64,000 nt of DNA from positions 6,262,001-6,326,000 of the forward strand of contig NC_060024.1 in NCBI RefSeq assembly GCF_021134715.1, in the 5' to 3' direction. A program made the position numbers and the translations under genes. Shown here piece after piece: positions 42,813-63,488 of the stretch; position 1 is the first letter of the stretch, and each line of letters opens with the position of its first letter. The stretch comes from Daphnia pulex (lineage: Eukaryota; Arthropoda; Branchiopoda; Diplostraca; Daphniidae). Under the pieces are notes generated by a model. The model was not told the DNA's origin. It worked only from the letters and a program-made list of their open reading frames with translations, and did no database searches.

Positions 42813-42885
42813 GCCTGGCTAGCTCAGTCGGTAGAGCATGAGACTCTTAATCTCAGGGTCGTGGGTTCGAGCCCCACGTTGGGCG
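42813..42885 (+). tRNA. tRNA-Lys (CTT)
   Basis: 73 nt cloverleaf. Box A TAGCTCAGTCGG and box B GGTTCGAGCCC are present. The anticodon loop ACTCTTAAT gives CTT. The acceptor arms GCCTGGC/GTTGGGC pair with G-U wobbles. A T-run terminator follows after GAAAA. Confidence 0.95.
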
Positions 42886-43163
42886 AAAATTTTTATTTTT
42901 CATAATTTGTGCAACAAAATTATTTATACGTTTTAATCCCATGACTCCCCTAAACCTAGATGTCGACTAACTGATAAATATGCAGAATAATTTTGTTTCC
43001 CTTTTTTCTATTAATTCAATTTAATTAAAGACATTAAAAACAAGTAAGTTTTTTGTGTTAACTGTTTTTTAAGTTAACTCTTACCTGAATTGCAGTAAAA
43101 TGTAAAAAATAATTTACAACTACTTGTCAAGTTTAAAAACTAAAAAGTTTATTGATTCTTTCA

Positions 43164-43236
43164 GCCCGGTTAGCTCAGTTGGTAGAGCGCGGGACTTTTA
43201 ATCCTGAGGTCAAGGGTTCAAGTCCCTTATCGGGCG
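43164..43236 (+). tRNA. tRNA-Lys (TTT)
   Basis: 73 nt cloverleaf with box A TAGCTCAGTTGG and box B GGTTCAAGTCC. The anticodon loop ACTTTTAAT gives TTT. The acceptor arms GCCCGGT/ATCGGGC pair. A long T run follows. Confidence 0.95.
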
Positions 43237-43617
43237 GCCTCTTTTTTTTCGATTTATTTGCAAAATAATTGACAATGGAAGAACAGATTTGGATTTGAAG
43301 TTATCGTGAAAAACTACTTTCTTTTTCTAGGATTTGAAATTAAAAGTTTGAAAAAACACTTGGTTGAAGCAAAGAGAGGGAATCGTCATGAGCCGTCTAG
43401 CGGTCGGTGAAAAAACGGTTTTTATTATATGTGTATTTTCAAGAAACAGTCATTTTAGTCTTTTCGATAAACTTGAATTTTTTAAGTATTATTTTACTTT
43501 CAATTTTAAATTAGTTGACCGAGATGTTGGAATGTTGACCATTTAAATAAAAGCAAATGTTTTGAAACTATAGAATCCTGACATCTATTGAATATTGTGT
43601 TGAATTTTACTAGCCAA

Positions 43618-43691
43618 GGCTTGTTAGCTCAGTTGGTTAGAGCGCCGTGCTAATAACGCGGAGGTCATGAGTTCGATCCTCTTACGAGCCA
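43618..43691 (+). tRNA. tRNA-Ile (AAT), copy 1
   Basis: 74 nt. GGCTTGT/ACGAGCC acceptor arms. The anticodon loop CTAATAA gives AAT. Box A and box B (GTTCGATCC) are intact. Identical to the copies at 51032 and 51197. Confidence 0.95.
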
Positions 43692-43987
43692 TATATTTTT
43701 ATAGAGATTGTCAGCAGTGTAAAATAATAAATCTAGTTGGTGTCCTCCACTTTGCGTTAATTACTGAAGAAAAGTTTATGCACGATAAAAAGAGACGATT
43801 TCCTGCAATATTATTGATTTCATAAAAAAATGTTACTTTTGGAGTTAAATCAAAATATGTAGGCCCGTGAAAATCAATCCAACAAAGCAATTCATTTTAT
43901 TATTATACAAAATTTATAAAATGATAGAAATCAAGGAATTCATAGAAATGTGTGACATTGCTAAGTCGTTTTTGTCGCAAAGAATAT

Positions 43988-44071
43988 GTCAGGATGGCCG
44001 AGCGGTCTAAGGCGCTGCGTTCAGGTCGCAGTCCAGTTCTCTGGGCGTGGGTTCGAATCCCACTTCTGACA
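43988..44071 (+). tRNA. tRNA-Leu (CAG)
   Basis: 84 nt with a long variable arm. GTCAGGA/TTCTGAC acceptor arms. The anticodon loop TTCAGGT gives CAG. Box B is GGTTCGAATCC. A CTCCTTTTATTTT terminator follows. Confidence 0.94.
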
Positions 44072-45303
44072 ACTCCTTTTATTTTAAATTACTAATTTGA
44101 GTGTGTGATAATTTCCATCGATAACAAATAACAAACATGGAATTCAACAGAATTCCAATTTCAGCGCATGGTAGAACTACAGGCCTAAAACCGGTTCGCT
44201 TCAAACCGCGCTTTACCGTTCAAACATTATATTCAGAACAATTGGAAATCAAAATGAAAATTTATGTCCATCATGCTGTTTGTATACATAATGTACAGGT
44301 ACAGGTACTACATGAAACCAACAGGTTTATTGCATATACACCAACATTATGGGTTTGTTGATCTGCTGACTCATATTGACAAATTCATTTCTGTACAATA
44401 TGTCTTGATGCTTTGTTGTAATACGTTTTAAATGAAACGGACACAACAGTTATTGTGGAGTAGAATAGAATAATCACGTTTAATAGGACAACACTGTTCT
44501 TTGTTTCGACTCGAATGAGTTGAATAGCAATACAAAAACGCATAAACGCTTGTCGATTATTTGCAGTGCAAAAACCAATTGATGTTATATTGCCCTTGCC
44601 CAAAGACTTTCATATTTCCCATGTCGGCGATTGTGTGAGCGTCAGTGCGCAGTAAGACTTCGCTACAAGGCCGACCTTCGTGAAACAAGTCAGCACTTTA
44701 ATATAAATACTTGCTATAGCCTATAGTGTTCGTTCTATCTCTGCACGATACTGCGCAGCACGAACCAATTTCAGCTTATTTTTCAAGTTCACAAGCCTGA
44801 AACAGTTGAACAGCTGCTGCTATAGTAAATATAAACACAATGACGAAATGTTTCACATATTGCGCTTCGGGAAATCCAAAAATTCCTTTCGACTTCCGAA
44901 ACACAATTTTAAAGCGAGTATACGTATAGATTTTCGAGATATAACAAAGATTATGATTGCATAGAACCGGTAAGACCACCGACCAAGACGGCAGCAAAAC
45001 CGCAAAAATACGACCAAGGTGGATATAATTTATAATATGCGACAGCTGCTGGAGGACTCGTGTAGCAGCCGCAGCAGCATGTGTATGTAACATCACAGTC
45101 ACAGCAAGCTATTGAGCTGTAATTTTTCCAGAACGGTTATTGGGTACGAAGACCTTGTAATTGCAAATAGCACATTTTTAAAATGGGGGAATAAGAACCT
45201 TTACGGTCCGCTACAATGCCCAGAAGAGAGCAGTTCATTTTGCTGCTGCCGTTGCGGTCGAACCAGTTAATAATTCACGGAAGGGCGAACTTCCTTACTC
45301 GTG
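44072..45303. other. No gene seen
   Basis: AT-rich spacer between the tRNA cluster and the His/Gly-rich peptide gene. Open stretches (for example minus 44776-45102) have no recognisable domain. The last 100 bp is the promoter of the next gene. Confidence 0.5.
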
Positions 45304-51031: not shown

Positions 51032-51105
51032 GGCTTGTTAGCTCAGTTGGTTAGAGCGCCGTGCTAATAACGCGGAGGTCATGAGTTCGATCCTCTTACG
51101 AGCCA
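51032..51105 (+). tRNA. tRNA-Ile (AAT), copy 2
   Basis: The same 74 nt as 43618-43691, including anticodon AAT. The flanks differ from the other copies. A T-run follows. Confidence 0.95.
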
Positions 51106-51196
51106 AAACTTTTTTAAACTTTTCATGCTTTTCACTAGCAAGATTTCGACTGTCCATTGTGTTATCATTGAGTTATAACATACTTGATGCGTTGCA

Positions 51197-51270
51197 GGCT
51201 TGTTAGCTCAGTTGGTTAGAGCGCCGTGCTAATAACGCGGAGGTCATGAGTTCGATCCTCTTACGAGCCA
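51197..51270 (+). tRNA. tRNA-Ile (AAT), copy 3
   Basis: The same 74 nt again, 91 bp downstream of copy 2 and in the same orientation. Followed by a T-rich terminator. Confidence 0.95.
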
Positions 51271-54356: not shown

Positions 54357-56943
54357 TCATCTGGGAATAGTCTCCAATCGTGCCACAAAGTCGGCCGTGG
54401 TGGCAGTCATGGTGGGAGTTAATCGGAAAACTCTTTCCTCGAAAAATTTGAAGAGCGGCTTGATGAGAACCGGATAATGCAACTGGAAAACAAAGTAGGA
54501 CGCAAAGAGATTCTTGAAAGCTGTAAGGGAATCGCTGCCGCACGGAATGATGTTGCCATCGATGACCAAGTTGAAGTACACTGGCTCCGTCATCGTTCCG
54601 ACACCGACGAGATACGGATGCGGAGTCGAATTGGTTTGATCCGTTGGGCGTAAGGCCACGAATTCTTGTAGGTTTCGGTTTTCCTAGAATAGAAATGAGA
54701 CTGATTTCAATCATTTTTTTGGGGTTGGATGAAATGTAACATACCGATACGAACATCACGAGTTGTTGAACTTTTTCATCGACAGAATTCTTGCGAATTT
54801 TTTTAATTTCTGGCATGATGAAGATGCATATCAGCAGCAAACGGAGAAAGTCTGAAGAAAAGATAAAATAGTTGTTTTTAACTATTCTATACGTATGGAG
54901 ACTATCTGGCTGTTACCATTATTGCAAACTGGGAGAGCATCCAGTTCTTTCTCGGCTAGAAAAATAAGTCGATCACCATACGTGTGAATGAAATTCTGCT
55001 CAATATCATTGGCCGAAGGATATTTTCTCTTGAAATCGTCGAAAATCTAATTTCCAAGAATAATTGCAAACTAAGCGTCAGGTGTCACATTTAACATAGA
55101 AAAGCCCTTATATTACCAATAGACCGTTGTTAAAGTCCACCATGCGCGGATATTCCGCCAGGATGAGGCTTGGAGTCTTGAGATTTCTCTTCATTTGATA
55201 CTGACGGAAGGGAAATGTCGATTCCATGGCATCGTTGATCTGTTCGGCGTTGGATGCAGTCGGTATCAAACTTTTCAGCAAACGAACCTGTTGATCAGAA
55301 CCAAAATCTGTGATAAAAAAAGCATAGAAACGGAACAGAAAATAAATTTTTACCATAAATTCGTGCATCTGAATTTCTTCTTCTTCCAGTTCTGGCCCGC
55401 AATCTTCGATATATCCTCGAGGAATTCTCCGGTGAATTTTCTGCTTCAGACTCATTTTCCTTTTCCGACATTCAGGTTGCTTTTTGCGCATCGTCTTCAA
55501 CAGTGTCTCTATGAAGCCGCCAGATTTGGCATGGTAGTAGTGACTGTGGATGAGATTGTTCCCGTCTCTAATGCCTAGGCAAGGGAAAGCTTGAATAATC
55601 GCAGCGGCCAACAGATCCTTTTCCTGCGTCGTAGGGTAAAGTCCAATCTCGTTGACCATGGCCTCTACCACTACAAAGACTATAGTCCTGCGCTCAGGGA
55701 CGGTTAGAAAGGTTTTTTCACGGGCTAAATAGTCCTCGTAAACGGCTCTCCCTTTACTCGACGCAAGGATCATTTCTTTAACGTTGAAAGTGCAGCACTA
55801 GGTACAGAAAAATCCAAATTAATTGACAGTTTTGGTGAACAAATAATGAAATTCAAATTAGGTATATATACCCTTTCAGATCTTCGCGGAGAGCTGGAGC
55901 TGTCTATGTTGGGAAGTTGTTGCATGAGAACTTTGTGAGTTACAGAAGGCTGAAGTTGAACTATTGGAATTGCAGTTTGCACGGGAATGGCACTTGCGGA
56001 CGATACTGAAACATTTGACGATGACATCGGGACACTTATCGGTGAAGATACCATAACACTTGTTGTCGGTAATACTGACGCACTTGTCGAAGGTAATATT
56101 GAGACACTTGTTGAAGGTAATACTGAAACACTTGCTGAAGATAATACTGAAACATTTTCTGGAGATAATACTGAAATATTTTCAGAGGACAGTATCGAAA
56201 CACTTTCTGAAGATAGTGGGTAGTTTGTTGGTGAAGAGACTGAAAAACTCGCAGAACATACTGGAAAATTTGGAGATGATACTGGAACATTTGGCGAGAA
56301 TACTGAGGGTTGCACTATAATTGGAAATGTTTCCATTGATGCCACATTCATCATTGATGGCTGATGGCTTGGCTGCACATTAGCGGTTGAAACTGTAGGC
56401 TCTGCTGTTTTTTTAGGCGGTGGGTTTTGGAGAGTCTGAATCAATCGTTCCACCTTTTTCTTGTGGCCTAGTTTCAGTTTGAGCTCATTAAGGTCCTCCC
56501 TTGTAAGCGTCAAAAGGCTATTTCCATCGATATCTTCATCTGCAAAGAACAACATTTTATCTCCAAACTGAAAACACAGTTACAAAAATTAAAGGAACAG
56601 TACCTTTAAAGGTATCAATAACTGATTGATCAAAGGATTCCATTTTTAGCTTCCTTGCAACATCTTCTGAAGTCCATTTTGTTACATCTGCATCAAGAGG
56701 TAGCTCACCACATTCCATTGCTATGTCATGAAACGATAATTCTTCTAAATCAGGACAATGTTCGGATTGACTGTCACTGTGCTCAAAATTTGAAGTGTCT
56801 TTAGCTGGCTCGGTTGTTATAAAGTGAACTGAACGGAAGTGCTCAAAGAGATCTTTTGAATCTCCTGGAATTTCTATGTTGCACAGAAAACAACTTGAAT
56901 TCATGGGTAAATTAGTACTGGTTCGTAATCTGCGTTTCGGCAT
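54357..56943 (-). CDS. SAM-domain protein (SAMD3-like) with N-terminal zinc finger and Ser-rich repeats, 728 aa
   Basis: Seven exons (56604-56943, 55872-56539, 55354-55797, 55117-55287, 54917-55046, 54745-54851, 54357-54683) sum to 2187 nt. A C2H2 finger lies at about 17-38 (CFLCNIEIPGDS, then FEHFRSVH). A SAM domain spans about 90-155 (TKWTSEDVARKL, then NSLLTLTREDLNELKLKLGH). A Ser/Val/Pro-rich tract follows at about 170-300, with near-repeats such as SVSILSSENISVLS. The C-terminal half (about 340-728) resembles the conserved tail of SAMD3-like proteins (YYHAKSGGFIETLL, FPFRQYQMKRNLKTPS, PHPYLVGVG). SAM domains mediate protein interaction; the exact role is unknown. An in-frame Met at 56958 is an alternative start. 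Confidence 0.82.
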
Positions 56944-57669
56944 GTTCAACAAGTGCAATCTGAAAAAAAGTATTATTTAGCCAGTTGACAAAATAAAAAA
57001 ATAAATAAAACCAAATAAACAAACATGTGATTTACCGGTTCAAAACACGATTGCGGTTTGTCGAAATATCCAATAAAAATCAATAAGACGAGTCACAATG
57101 AAAACCCGTAAAAGTAATGTTGGCTTGGCTTGGTCCTTCTGACAATGAACTTTTGGGGGTGACCAATTGTTAAACTGTTGGGACCTTCTTGAAGACTAAA
57201 ATGCCACGCATACGGCACGCATATTTTTCTGTTGTTTGCCACGTCGTCTGCGATTTGCTTATAACGTGGCTTGATGTTTTGGTTTGAATTCAATCTCCGA
57301 TATTTTCCACCAGATGACTTGTATGGCCTAAAGGCGGGAAGCTCTAAAAAAATGTAGCCAATCAAATCGGGGATAATTTATGAGCGCTCCAAGCGACAAC
57401 CTGAAAAGGGCGCGGATTTTTCAAACAGTACAACAATTTTATTCCAACTTTTTAGATTTTGCATGCGCCTATGCGGAACGGATAAAAATAACGGATGGGT
57501 TTAGAATGGTTTTCAGTAAACAATGTAGGATGAAATGATTTGTTGAATTTGACACAATAAATTTACAACGTACGTATGTTGTATATTTTAACTGAAATTG
57601 GTCAAACATGAAACAATTCGAAGTTCTAGATTTTCAGAGTCATCATAAATCACGGTAACCAGAATGTGC
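56944..57669. other. Spacer with a segment duplicated at 61365-61560
   Basis: The minus-strand open stretch 57093-57365 includes KSSGGKYRRLNSNQNIKPRY, repeated at 61319-61519. The surrounding DNA from about 57255 to 57500 is duplicated near 61365-61570. It is the 3' boundary of the duplicated RING-TDP2-like unit. No independent gene can be proved. Confidence 0.55.
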
Positions 57670-59484
57670 TTAAAATATACAAAAATCAACTAAAATCGCT
57701 GAGGAAATGGCTCTTCTGATGTTTAAAAATTCAATTTCACCATAGAATTTAGGTTGGGCGAAAACAGAATTTGAAGGACGTAAGTATACGCGTGCAAGAC
57801 GATGTTCGTCGCAATAGGGCATTTTACCGTTGAAACTTTTATATTCTAAGACATCGGTTTCAGTCATGCTGTCATAAGGCCAGATGAAGTTGCACATTCT
57901 TGGTTTTTTGCAAGCTTCCCAAACATCAACGGTGCGATGAGGTAGTCCAACGTCTCGCGTGTAGGTATGCCACTAAAATTAAAAATTTTCTATTTATTAA
58001 CTCAAAAGCAATGAATTGTAGAGAAAGAAAAACATGCATTTTGTTCATCCCAGCAACCCCCCATTCTCAAAATGATGTTCGCTGTTGCATCGGATTCATT
58101 TCCTAGTTCGTCCAACATCAATTTCGTAAAATTCTCCCGCCACATGTCACTTGCGTACATGTCAATCTCAGCGTTGATTAATTTTAGTTTCAGAGATCCC
58201 ACATGCGCCTTGAGTAAAAATAATACATATTAATAATAACGAGAATTAAAGGTCATAACAAACTAAAGAAATTAATAAAAAGGGGCAAGAAAATAAACAA
58301 GAAAGAAAACAAAATAATTCACTCAGGTTAATAACTCACTTCAACTATAAGAAAGTTATAGTTTAATGGAAGGTCACCATCAGTTTGCTCTAAGGGCAGT
58401 TGTACGACTTCGTGGGAATCATAAAACACGGAAGTGTTCAACAGCGTTACGCTAGAAATAATTTTTAAAAAATTACACAGATGCTGGACAGCTGGAGTTA
58501 AAAGTTCTGCAAACTCATGCTGGAGGTAAGTGACTAGGAATGTAGGCCTACCTCATCTCTTGATAGCTGAATTCAGAAATAAATTTGAAATTGGGAAGAC
58601 TCTTTTTAAGGCGATCGAGAGTGGCCGGCTTCACATGGTAGAGAAACACAACATCAGGATTTTGTGTTTTCAAGATATTAACAAGTGATGCCATCAACAG
58701 ATGAAAGTTGGAAGCATCATTATTGGCAAGGAAACGTTCCCAAGAAATAATTCGCAATTTAGCTGGTTTTTCCGTATCCGGAATCTTCATAGAAGCTTGA
58801 TGAAAATGGTTGACAACTTCTTTACTGCAATATTTACAACAGATAAAAAGTTATTCAATTAACTCTACAATTCTTAAAGGAAATGAATCAATATTTGACC
58901 TGGCGTTGAAAGACAAAACCTTTGGCTCATGATCATCTGTTACGACAAACACTTGGCATTCAGACTTGTTGGATTTGAAATATGCATCCAGTAACTTTGA
59001 GGATCTAGAAAAAAAGTGAATTAAATTTTATGGTTATTTAAACAACAAATTGAATAATTACATAATAAAGAACTAACAATTTGGCCTCTGCTTCAGCTTT
59101 CTCTAACTTCTTATTCAAAAGAATATTGTGTTCAGCATGGACATTGTTGGGTAGGGATTCTACTTTATCAATTCCAACTGCTGTTTTTCGACACATAGGA
59201 CATTTCAATGGATTCCCAGAACCAATCATAACCTGATGAAAGTAGGAAAAGCCATTATGCAGACGAGAAATTGCAACAGCAAAATGAAATTTAATCGCAC
59301 ACTACAAACCATCCAACCATTTTTACGACTAGTTTTGTTTCAAGAAACTTACTTGAATGCAGGTGAAACAGAATGTATGAGAGCAAGGCAGTACTTTGGG
59401 CCGATTCATGACAAGATCATACTTGATGAAGCATATGCCACAAGTTGATAAATAATCATCTTCATTTGAACTTCCTGTAGCCAT
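57670..59484 (-). CDS. RING finger fused to a degenerate TDP2-like (EEP-fold) domain, copy 1 (416 aa)
   Basis: Seven exons (59353-59484, 59078-59232, 58900-59004, 58552-58824, 58340-58451, 58038-58208, 57670-57972) sum to 1251 nt. A C3HC4 RING spans residues 15 to about 60 (CGICFIKYD, VLPCSHTFCFTC, LKCPMCRK), followed by a short coiled coil (KKLEKAEAEAKL). From about 160 the sequence follows tyrosyl-DNA phosphodiesterase 2 (LRIISWERF, NPDVVFLYHV, DVGLPHRTVDVWEACKKPRMCNFIWP). The TDP2 catalytic positions are changed: SWN is SWE, QEV is YHV, the GDTN site is MGGCW, and SDHW is not found. It is probably a ubiquitin ligase with a non-catalytic EEP-type binding domain. Intron 6 begins with GC (AAT/GCATGT), where copy 2 has GT. 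Confidence 0.85.
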
Positions 59485-60461
59485 TTTATTGCTTAGAATA
59501 AAATACAATGGATGAGTGTGAAATTATACAGCCTATTTTTTAAAGGATGTACATACAGCGTGGTGTGGCGTTTTTTCGATACAATTTTTTCATAAGTAAA
59601 CGAATGTTCCTACACGTACAGCATTCAGCAAATACATGTGTCATGCATGGGCTTGCATACATAAATGATAAATTATTACTTATCAGAGACAGACTGTGTG
59701 TCTCTGTTTGTATTCGAATTCAGACGTCACTTTTTTGTGGCGTGCAGACGACGTCAGACACAGAGCGGCGAGAGTCGCAGACTGCATGCGCCGCGCGGAT
59801 TACAAATAAAGGGGAAAAAAGAAAAAAAAAACAATCTCCAGCTAACTGATTAAATTTTAATGAAATATAGCTACAGTTCTCGGTAATCTCAAACTGAAAA
59901 CTTCACAAGTTACGTAAGGACAATACCCTTTCCAAACGGGATCAAAGGCAGCAAATGTTTAAATTTCGCAACCGTTCTATTCCAAGCTTACAATTTACAT
60001 TTTGCTAGGAAAATTAAAGCAATTTAATGAGAAATGTTCTGTTAGGTTACGTTCGCAAAATCACGTTTGTAATTACTATTGCAGCTCAGGGTATGTTAAA
60101 ATGGCCAATATTAAAGCGCAAAAAGATGCAAAGAAGCGCAGAAAAGAGCGCTAATTTGAGAAATATGAAGGATGAACTTTTCATTAATCTTGCATATGAG
60201 TCGCATTCATACAACCAAATAATGACACTGTGATTAAATGAAGGTTTCAAGCTAAATGAATGGTATTATAAAACTATGGATTTAAATCCTACAGGAAATT
60301 TCAAATTAAAAAAAAAAAATACTAAAGTCTGTTAGGTTCGTTGAAATCATTCATGTACATTCTGAGAGTGAAGTTTATTTAAAAATAAAGGGAACCAACA
60401 GAAGAAAATAGAAAGTTTTCTACATGGCAATGCTAGAGAAATCCATAAAAGGAGTCGATTG
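59485..60461. other. Upstream flank of RING-TDP2-like copy 1
   Basis: Promoter side of the gene by position. A short stretch near 60040-60095 (GTTACGTTCGCAAAATC, GCAGCTCAGG) is matched upstream of copy 2 near 63776-63820, so the duplicated unit includes upstream DNA. No separate gene is supported. Confidence 0.5.
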
Positions 60462-60534
60462 TGGAGATGCAGGGTATCGATCCCCGTACTTCTCGCATGC
60501 TAAGCGAGCGCTCTACCATCTGAGCTACATCCCC
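60462..60534 (-). tRNA. tRNA-Ala (AGC)
   Basis: 73 nt on the minus strand. GGGGATG/TGCATCTCC acceptor arms pair with one loose position. Box A TAGCTCAGATGG is present. The anticodon loop TTAGCAT gives AGC. Box B is GGATCGATACC. Confidence 0.94.
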
Positions 60535-60884
60535 GACGATTTTCCCTCTAAATTTTAAAATTAAATATTTAGACCACAGTGCGCCTAAAAAATTAATGAT
60601 CTTTGGAAGCGGATAAAAGTTGATTATGAGAAGGGGTACTGTCGACAATTTAAGAATTTTACCTTGAATTTTACTCACATTCACTTCGAGAATGAAATCT
60701 TTGCGAAGACTACCTGCATCTTTAGGAAGACTTAAGGTTAAGTGGGAGTAGGAGTCATTAAGAGACAGTTTCGTTAAGAATTACTAAAACTCTTGATGAA
60801 GTAAATCCAAAAGACAGAAATTAGCGAAATAATAAAACTGCTGTCCATCTTATTTCCATCCAAATTACCTTAGTTTTTCAGATG
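60535..60884. other. No gene seen
   Basis: AT-rich spacer between tRNA-Ala and the decayed RING-TDP2-like copy. Confidence 0.5.
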
Positions 60885-61330
60885 TTATAAATTTGAATTT
60901 TGAAATGTTTCTTTTAATAGACCTAGATCTCCATCAGCACGGTTAAGGAATACAATGTCGGGATTTTGTAGGAGCATAATCCAACTGAAACATATGCATC
61001 CACTGACCAATCGTCCCCAGTCTATAAATGAGAAAAATTTTGGGAGTTGGTTTAGATAAAACTTTGATGACATTACCGGACTACCATGGAATAGATATTT
61101 GGTATCGGCATATTACTAAAATGAATGTCCAAATAGAAATGAAATTTTTAGAAGTTGAATTTGTAAGGAGGCGCAAAATGTAACCCACCGTTTTATCTGA
61201 GCTTGAGCATTCCGTAATTTTTCACTGAGATGAATGATGGATTGAACATATTTGTTGTCCCGTAAGGTCAAAACGTTTCCAATTTCGACGGCCAAGCGTC
61301 GACAGTCGGTGAATCGACCTAGTAACTTTC
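60885..61330 (-). pseudogene. Decayed third copy of the RING-TDP2-like gene
   Basis: Minus-strand pieces align with copies 1 and 2. Around 61140-61325, DCRRLAVEIGNVLTLRDN and HLSEKLRNAQAQIK correspond to MCRKTAVGIDKVESLPNN and LLNKKLEKAEAEAK. At 60885-60980, LLQNPDIVFLNRADGDLGLL corresponds to LKTQNPDVVFLYHVKPATLD. Intervening exons are missing and frames are broken. Much more diverged than copies 1 and 2 are from each other, so it is an older duplicate. Confidence 0.75.
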
Positions 61331-61364
61331 ACTCATTAACTTAAAACTCCATGCTGGAATTTTG

Positions 61365-61570
61365 TAACGTGGCTTGATGTTTTGGTTTGAATTCAATCTC
61401 CGATATTTTCCACCAGATGACTTGCATGGCTTAAAGGCGGGAAGCTTTAAAAAAAATGTCCTTGGGGATAATTTATGAGCGCTCCAAGCGACAACCTGAA
61501 AAGGGCGCGGATTTTTCAAACAGTACGATTTGATTTCAACTTTTTAGATTTTGCATGCGCCTATGCGGAA
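61365..61570. repeat. Segmental duplicate of 57255-57500
   Basis: AACGTGGCTTGATGTTTTGG and the following roughly 200 bp (including GGGGATAATTTATGAGCGCT and GCGCCTATGCGGAAC) match the sequence at 57262 onward. It marks the 3' edge of the tandem duplication that made the two RING-TDP2-like genes. Confidence 0.85.
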
Positions 61571-61745
61571 CCGCCGGAACGGATAAAAATAACGAATGGT
61601 TTAGAATTGTTTTTAGTAAACAATGTAAGATGAAAAATGATTTGTCCAATTTAACAAAAGAATAACAACGAATGTTGTATATTTTAACTGCAATTGGCGC
61701 AACATGAATCCATTCAAAGTTCTAGATTTTCAGGGTCATCCTTAA

Positions 61746-63488
61746 TCACGATAGACAAAATGTGCTTGAAATATCGAAATCAACTAAGATTGCTGAATGA
61801 ATGGCTTCGGTGATGTTTAAGAACTCAATTTCACCATAGAATTTAGGTTGGGCGAAAACAGTTTCGGACGACCGTAAGTATACGCGTGAAAAACGATTAT
61901 GTTCGCAATAAGGAACTTTATCGTTAAAATCCTTATACTCCAAGACATCGGTTTCCGTCGTTCTGTCATAAGGCCAGATGAAGTTGCACATTCTTGGTTT
62001 TTTACACGCTTCCCATACATCAACGGTAGGATGAGGTAGTCCAACGTCTCGTGTGTAGGTATCCCACTAGAAATGTAAATTTTAAGAAGTTCTATTGATT
62101 ATCTAGGAAGCATTGAATTGCAAAGAAAGAAAACATACATTTTGATTATTACAGCAACCCCCCATTTTCATTATGATGTTTGCTGTTGCATCGGATTCCT
62201 TTCCTAGTTCGTCCAACATCAATTTCGTAAAATTCTCCCGCCACATGTCACTTGCGTACATGTCAATCTCAGCGTTGATTAATTTTAGTTTCAGAGATCC
62301 CACATGCGCCTTGAGTAAAAATAATACATATTAATAATAACGAGAATTAAAGGTCATAACAAACTAAAGAAATTAATAAAAAGGGGCAAGAAATTAAACA
62401 AGAAAGAAAACAAAATAATTCAGTAATAACTCACTTTAACTATAAGAAAGTTATATTCACCAGATTCCTCAACGGGAAGTTGTACGGCTTCGTGGGAATC
62501 ATAAGACACATAAGTGTTCAACAGCGTTACGCTAGAAATAATTTAAAAAATTAAAATATTATTCAAACTCATGCTGGAAATGGACTAGAAATGTACCTCA
62601 TCTGATCGTTGAATTCATAAATAAATCTGAAATTGGGGAGACTCTTTTTAAGGCGATCGAGAGTGGCCGGCTCGACGTTGTAGAGAAACACAACATCAGG
62701 ATTTTGTGCTTTCAAGATATTAACAAGTGATGTCATCAACAGAGGAAATGCAGGAATGTCATTAAACATGAAACCTTCCCAAGAAATAATTCGCAATTTA
62801 GCTGGTTTTTCTGTATTCGGTATCTTCACAGAAGTATGATGAAAATGGTTGACGGCGTCCTTACTGCATTGCAACAGATCAAAAATAAATCATTCAACTC
62901 AACATTTCTTAATGGAAATAAATCAATATTTGACCTGGCGTTGAAAGACATAACCTTTGGCTCATGATCATCAGTTATGACAAACACTTGGCATTCAGAC
63001 TTGTTGGATTTGAAATATGCATCCAGTAACTTTGAGGATCTAGAAAAAAAGTGAGTTAAATTAAATTATTTAAAGAGCAACTGAATGATTAATAAAGAAC
63101 AAACAATTTGGCCTCAGCTTCAGCTTTCTCTAACTTCTCATTCAAAAGAATAATGTGTTCGGCATGAACATTGTTGGGTAGGGATTCAACTTTATCAATT
63201 CCAACTGCTGTTTGTCGACACATGGGACATTTCAATGGATTCCCAGAACTAATCATAGCCTGATAGAAGTAGGAAAAGTCATGCAAAATTAGTTTTAATC
63301 GCACACTGCAAATCATCCAAACATTTTTACGACTAGTTTTGTTTTAAGAAACTTACTTGAATGCAGGTGAAACAGTATGTATGAGAGCAAGGCAGTACTT
63401 TGGGCCGATTCATGAGAAGGTCATACTTGATGAAGCATATGCCACAAGTTGATAAATAATCATCTTCATTTGAACCTCCTGTAGCCAT
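61746..63488 (-). CDS. RING finger fused to a degenerate TDP2-like (EEP-fold) domain, copy 2 (415 aa)
   Basis: The same seven-exon structure as copy 1 (63357-63488, 63105-63259, 62935-63039, 62597-62863, 62435-62531, 62139-62309, 61746-62066), sum 1248 nt. The RING is intact (CGICFIKYD, VLPCSHTYCFTC, LKCPMCRQ). The TDP2-like part again has SWEGF for SWN, LYNV for QEV and MGGCC at the GDTN site, and lacks SDHW, so loss of catalysis predates the duplication. Exon 4 is 6 nt and exon 5 is 15 nt shorter than in copy 1, both in frame. The C-terminus runs nine residues further (ending SSTFCLS). Intron 6 has a normal GT donor (AAT/GTATGT). Confidence 0.85.

Follow-up and report, generated by a model that had tools for sequence, protein, structure and literature searches.

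The window analysed here is a stretch of 64,000 nucleotides from Daphnia pulex, lying on contig NC_060024.1 (hereafter C8) at C8:6262001-6326000. Near its end, two genes on the minus strand join an N-terminal RING finger to a C-terminal domain resembling the phosphodiesterase TDP2, which is also called TTRAP. Gene A (type 1a, T1a; 59484-57670) was rebuilt with its exon joins and phases from seven exons (59484-59353, 59232-59078, 59004-58900, 58824-58552, 58451-58340, 58208-58038 and 57972-57670) and encodes 416 amino acids. Gene B (type 1b, T1b; 63488-61746) likewise has seven exons (63488-63357, 63259-63105, 63039-62935, 62863-62597, 62531-62435, 62309-62139 and 62066-61746), encodes 415 amino acids and keeps the catalytic histidine discussed below. 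Both frames are open and share intron phases 0, 2, 2, 2, 0, 0, in agreement with an earlier reading made from the letters of this DNA (the sequence-only reading), which had described two intact genes with one exon plan. The proteins are identical at 343 of 415 positions by BLASTP, and their EEP parts at 80%. Exons 1-2 encode the RING (59078..59484 in A and 63105..63488 in B; RING residues 15-58 in each). Exon 3 of A (58900..59004; 105 nucleotides, phase 2 at both ends) is the counterpart of TDP2 exon 3. Exons 4-7 (57670..58824 in A and 61746..62863 in B) encode the TDP2-like EEP domain, from which most catalytic residues are gone. The motifs VGLPH.TVDVWE and CNFIWP are present in both genes.

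A search of the genome (133.19 Mb, 13 contigs) recovered at least seven copies of this RING-TDP2 architecture across C8:6319670-6343475 (about 24 kb), and the tandem arrangement noticed in the window is not confined to A and B. Type 1 consists of four close copies, all with open frames, namely A, B, T1c (C8:6331447-6329701) and T1d (C8:6343475-6341671), whose exon lengths differ by whole codons only. Type 2 includes T2a (C8:6328154-6326686) and T2c (C8:6339387-6337798), both with open frames, and T2b (C8, about 6334.2-6332.7k), which is broken by a frameshift in exon 3 (for the exon bounds tried) and by a stop codon within the frame of its final exon. The six intact copies referred to below are T1a, T1b, T1c, T1d, T2a and T2c; T2b is excluded. 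Between A and B, on the minus strand, there is a stop-ridden type-2 relic (60676..61304; tblastn with the type-2a protein, E 3.6e-29) that retains the last portion of RING exon 2 and some of the EEP domain. The EEP domains of the two types are 31-33% identical. The 300 bases past the stop codons are 86-91% identical among the four type-1 copies, and the stretches 57290-57540, 3' of A, and 61365-61620, 3' of B, are near-identical by eye. The 5' flank of A is 48-49% identical to those of the other three type-1 copies, which share 94-97% with one another.

All introns of gene B are GT-AG, as are those of gene A save for the exon-6 donor, which is GC (AAAT/GCATGT, the slash marking the exon end). 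The same GC donor is found in T1c, and GT in B and T1d. The GC-AG intron 6 of gene A is taken to be used because exon 7, compared between A and T1c, has a proportion of non-synonymous differences (pN) of 0.113 and of synonymous differences (pS) of 0.252.

The RING half and the TDP2-derived half

Pfam places RING families at residues 14-60 of A and B, several of them above curated cut-offs, which bears out the C3HC4 RING that had been predicted for both genes; all four copies scanned (A, B, T2a and T2c) have RING families above cut-off. The spacing C-x2-C-x(n)-C-x-H-x2-C-x2-C-x(n)-C-x2-C is kept in each of the six intact copies. All six also have Ile before the second Cys, and the last Cys is followed by Arg (five copies) or Lys (one copy); we take the Ile to be the usual contact residue for the ubiquitin-conjugating enzyme (E2) and the Arg or Lys to be the linchpin. 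Among solved structures the RING of B is nearest to that of TRIM2 and next to that of TRIM3. Pfam scans of four of the six intact copies (A, B, T2a, T2c) gave no B-box after the RING, which is followed, as judged by eye, by a short charged helix-like stretch. Judged from its sequence and constraint, the RING is expected to engage an E2 and pass on ubiquitin.

The relationship of the second half to TDP2 emerged from a search of solved structures. With B as query (phmmer against PDB), TDP2 chains lead the matches (4fpv, residues 151-379, E 4e-12), and a profile built from the six intact EEP halves matches TDP2 with E 4.2e-20. The C-terminal alignment to TDP2 claimed by the sequence-only reading is thereby upheld, for A through its identity to B. 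The proposed profile search against EEP and TDP2 models succeeded in part: TDP2 structures were matched, but the general family Exo_endo_phos (PF03372) was found neither in A and B (E up to 1) nor in T2a and T2c (E up to 0.1). PF03372 itself, searched against the genome, matched at 136 places, many of them within long open frames (some 1000 residues or more) of the sort that long interspersed nuclear elements have; the RING-TDP2 relatives came from protein queries instead. A candidate at C4:7359041 (E 0.41) was dropped, as its frames of at least 40 residues hold nothing TDP2-like by eye, and a scan of viral contigs with the EEP alignment yielded 86 pattern matches and no relative.

The genome also contains a complete TDP2 of 358 amino acids on C1 (2465806-2464250), the sole complete one among the matches found. 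Pfam places UBA_4 at its residues 22-58 and Exo_endo_phos at residues 112-348, each scoring above cut-off, and its motifs SWN, QEV, GDLN and SDHW are all intact. The EEP domains of type 1 are 37-38% identical to it, that of T2c 40% and that of T2a 31%. Another locus, L062 (C2:7808.0-7808.8k), holds an incomplete copy of TDP2; its four pieces, 74-96% identical, are followed by other sequence after GGDL, and it was set aside because it is likely a pseudogene.

Alignment to TDP2 permits the fate of each active-site residue to be followed, with H226 and N264 at the positions we take them to hold in TDP2. The catalytic residues of TDP2 are N120, E152, D262 and H351 (PMC11369425, in excerpt), and the numbering of D122 and of the RFDR motif comes from PMC4925160 (also in excerpt). 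In the order T1a/T1b/T1c/T1d/T2a/T2c, the states are E/E/E/M/G/G at N120, F/F/F/K/L/L at D122, H/N/H/N/D/D at E152, E/E/E/E/E/Q at H226, G/G/R/G/G/G at D262, C/C/C/R/Y/Y at N264, A/S/L/S/D/D at D316 and S/H/Y/H/H/H at H351. The first six of these positions have thus lost the TDP2 residue in every intact copy, D316 is retained in two of six (T2a, T2c) and the catalytic His in four of six (T1b, T1d, T2a, T2c); in T1d the SW of SWN is gone as well. According to the sequence-only reading, neither A nor B keeps any of the catalytic residues. This applies to N120, E152, D262 and N264, but not to the His: the SDHWGL of TDP2 reads IHSAIL in B, with the His present, and only A has Ser. In all six, nevertheless, the alignment shows a RING fused with an EEP domain that derives from TDP2 and lacks most of its catalytic residues, and phosphodiesterase catalysis should be dead in each of them. 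Since Gly stands at position 262 in five of the six, the residues suggest that activity had already gone when types 1 and 2 diverged.

Other parts of the domain have been kept or enlarged. EEP core residues such as NPD.VF are invariant in the six copies. The M7 loop, which sits at the channel mouth of TDP2 (PMC4925160, in excerpt), has 24-27 residues compared with 16 in the genome's own TDP2, and the channel-mouth Trp (W297) is retained in all four type-1 copies and absent from type 2.

Intron positions and the origin of the fusion

All four type-1 introns downstream of exon 3 coincide with TDP2 introns and have the same phases (2, 2, 0, 0); the C1 gene has one additional intron, which splits the Q and E of QEV. 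Chance likeness to TDP2 is excluded because these intron positions are shared and a complete TDP2 gene is present in the same genome. TDP2 exon 3 starts RSLDAYFGAKK and carries the last piece of the UBA-like domain, and type-1 exon 3 starts SSKLLDAYFKSNK. This exon, holding the end of that domain, is the sole UBA-like leftover in type 1, and no UBA family appeared in Pfam scans of A, B, T2a and T2c.

In type 1 the first RING exon closes in phase 0, past the region of the third Cys pair (..CIQ), and the second in phase 2 with ..TT/GT. Two RING genes elsewhere, L056 on C7 and L065 on C9, show both of these exon ends, and L058 shares the first. Among the matches listed (100 of 103 candidates scored), most of the nearest RINGs from elsewhere in the genome belong to C7, with a top E of 6.3e-10. 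Two groups of RING matches were seen on this contig, at C7:283-327k and C7:577-610k. By eye, the RING relatives contain a stretch rich in Cys as well as long helical parts; L056 follows the same exon plan as the RING half and shows a long helix-like region after its Cys-rich stretch. In Pfam scans neither L056 nor the front of L065 yielded a B-box.

The gene structures show exon shuffling, because intron positions and phases match a RING family found mostly on C7 in exons 1-2, and TDP2 in exons 3-7. As the exon structure shows, exons 1-2 of a RING gene were put before a duplicated TDP2, displacing the first part of its UBA-like domain. The TDP2 half then lost its Mg-site and catalytic residues, the Asp of GDxN probably before the two types separated. 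The UBA-like domain of TDP2 binds ubiquitin, and replacement of its front by a RING thus exchanged a ubiquitin reader for a writer.

Some further features accompany the genes in the window. A tRNA-Ala gene (agc; 60461-60534, minus strand) sits next to the type-2 relic in the interval separating A from B, and six further tRNA genes form two groups at 42813-44073 (Lys, Lys, Ile, Leu) and 51032-51270 (Ile, Ile). Neighbouring frames occupy 55108-56976 on the minus strand, one bearing a repetitive Ser/Val-rich stretch; two pieces tested from these frames gave no Pfam match at E <= 0.01.

Evolutionary rates in the type-1 copies

Selection was analysed in the four type-1 copies with a custom codon model (F3x4, kappa) on four-taxon trees. 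Pooled pN/pS was 0.14 and 0.24 in the RING exons, 0.59 in exon 3 and 0.88, 1.75, 0.63 and 0.47 in exons 4-7. The sequence-only reading had proposed comparing dN/dS (omega) between the copies, and omega was 0.158 across the 95 codons of the RING (p 7.8e-5 against 1), which is under purifying selection, and 0.891 across the 267 columns of the EEP domain (p 0.49 against 1), which is not constrained by this measure. The EEP domain has nevertheless taken at least some 226 changes (minimum-spanning count) without a single stop codon, where 7-9 would be expected if it were unconstrained (P 9e-5 to 8e-4). For this domain the site model M2a fits better than M1a, twice the log-likelihood difference (2dlnL) being 26.2 with one tree (p 2e-6) and 21.6 with a tree per exon (p 2.1e-5); the RING and linker, analysed as a control, gave 2dlnL 0.01 (p 1). 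With all columns and per-exon trees, eleven sites have a posterior above 0.8 (161, 162, 163, 165, 170, 242, 245, 250, 367, 370 and 403). Sites 161-170 lie just past the SWN position, 367 and 370 in the M7 loop, and 403 near the SDHW position. The fraction of variable columns is 0.55 near catalytic positions and 0.34 far from them (radius 4, circular-shift p 0.046).

Several observations weigh against reading these rates as diversification around the old active site. The overall EEP omega is indistinguishable from 1. Removal of columns within three of a gap leaves 224 of 267 and lowers 2dlnL to 10.5 with one tree (p 0.005) and to 6.0 with per-exon trees (p 0.05), and two of the eleven sites (242 and 403) survive this masking. 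The clustering is marginal, with circular-shift p of 0.053-0.16 at the other five radii and, over all six, 0.03-0.15 under random placement; the surroundings of H226 are hardly variable and those of E152 little variable, and the 242-250 loop has no sourced tie to the active site. Gene conversion is evident: A and B are 98% identical in intron 5 compared with 78-90% in their other introns, and the best tree changes from exon to exon; such conversion can mimic positive selection or inflate site tests. Positive selection in the type-1 EEP loops is therefore likely and not settled, because the copies exchange sequence and the fastest loops adjoin gaps.

Possible function and relation to known systems

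The best explanation, held here to be fairly probable, is an exon-shuffled, TRIM-like family of ubiquitin ligases that uses a dead pseudo-TDP2 for recognition, because the type-1 EEP half stays open yet changes most rapidly in loops that for the most part lie close to the former active site. Recognition by a pseudo-EEP domain had been proposed by the sequence-only reading, with 5'-tyrosyl DNA ends, TOP2 or viral protein-linked genomes as possible substrates. The RING would recruit an E2 and pass on ubiquitin, and the dead EEP domain would act as a binding module, with the rim of the old active site and the channel-mouth loop as its likely recognition surface, as loop growth and fast change suggest. 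The tandem copies may have diversified against a changing target, much like fast-evolving TRIM proteins, and anything held in the pseudo-TDP2 pocket would most likely become ubiquitinated. As to the target, the first guess is a protein that is foreign or that evolves antagonistically for another reason, and the second an endogenous TOP2 or TDP2 complex. A more specific version, which seems distinctly unlikely as it stands, would make the copies invertebrate innate-immune ligases, whose dead pocket captures foreign protein-linked genomes, such as those of viruses with a genome-linked protein (VPg) or a terminal protein, or the proteins of such viruses, and marks them with ubiquitin, the loops having diversified between copies.

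The same architecture could serve DNA repair: the pseudo-TDP2 would still recognise 5'-tyrosyl DNA ends or TOP2 that has become trapped, and TOP2 would be ubiquitinated by the RING for removal, alongside active TDP2. In its favour, W297 at the channel mouth is kept in all type-1 copies, TDP2 has been found with the ubiquitin ligase (E3) TRIM52 and the SUMO ligase ZNF451 (PMC12022042, in excerpt), and TRAF6 ubiquitylates TTRAP (PMC3182262, in excerpt). However, H226, D262, N264 and other residues round the phosphotyrosyl site are gone, type 2 is without the channel-mouth Trp, and the nearby loops vary between copies, which is odd for a fixed ligand such as DNA or TOP2; the variable loops favour a changing target over a fixed DNA end. 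A repair ligase is thus considered unlikely, if still conceivable, and its likelihood overlaps with that of the preferred explanation because it is one form of it.

Two other possibilities were weighed. The EEP half might be jobless and under relaxed constraint, in decaying duplicates of which only the RING, or nothing, matters. An omega indistinguishable from 1, the broken T2b, the type-2 relic and the GC donor of A and T1c would all suit such decay, which is nevertheless rated as quite improbable: it sits badly with the lack of stops among some 226 EEP changes where 7-9 are expected, with type-1 exon lengths that differ by whole codons only, with the pN/pS of 0.47 in exon 7 and with six copies staying open over two branches only 31-33% identical in this domain. 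Alternatively, the dead domain could regulate TDP2, by competing for its partners as a dominant negative or by bringing the RING to TDP2 complexes. Regulation of the active enzyme is a common fate of pseudoenzyme paralogues, and the invariance of core residues such as NPD.VF would agree with it, but diversification among four tandem copies is not predicted by this idea, the least probable of those weighed here.

If the copies are ligases with a pseudo-TDP2 recognition domain, they show clearly how a repair enzyme can become a binding module, since the likely donor families, the joint and the residue losses are visible in one genome, and they make it testable whether a ubiquitin ligase can reuse the TDP2 pocket for substrate choice. 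Should the diversification hold across species, the family would amount to a TRIM-like system whose recognition domain is of a kind for which no report was found. The sequence-only reading knew of no described gene with this architecture, and none turned up in the open-access literature, as far as titles and the opening lines of abstracts reveal; animal protein databases may annotate it.

With TDP2 the copies have in common some 230-250 residues of homologous EEP domain, four intron positions and, in type 1, the leftover UBA-like exon. They differ from it in carrying a RING rather than a complete UBA-like domain, in lacking six residues of the catalytic site in all intact copies and in the longer loop at the channel mouth. 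Plant Tdp2alpha also combines a zinc finger with TDP2 in one protein, but the finger is of the RanBP2 type, not a RING, and the protein is described as acting in repair (PMC5958304, in excerpt). The combination of a conserved RING with a variable recognition domain recalls the TRIM ligases, such as TRIM52 and TRIM2/3, and the RING of B is nearest to TRIM2, then TRIM3. The putative recognition domain here is a pseudo-TDP2, not SPRY or NHL, and no B-box was found in the scanned copies. TRIM52 shows positive selection and occurs in complexes that contain TDP2; its strongest interactors include TDP2 and ZNF451, it limits TOP2 lesions, and in the authors' view it may work in parallel with TDP2 (PMC12022042, in excerpt). 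The pairing of a RING with TDP2 is sensible because TDP2 is already linked to E3 enzymes (TRIM52, ZNF451, TRAF6). TRIM52 is the nearest functional precedent found, and the Daphnia proteins may be a natural counterpart to this RING protein of TDP2-containing complexes in human cells.

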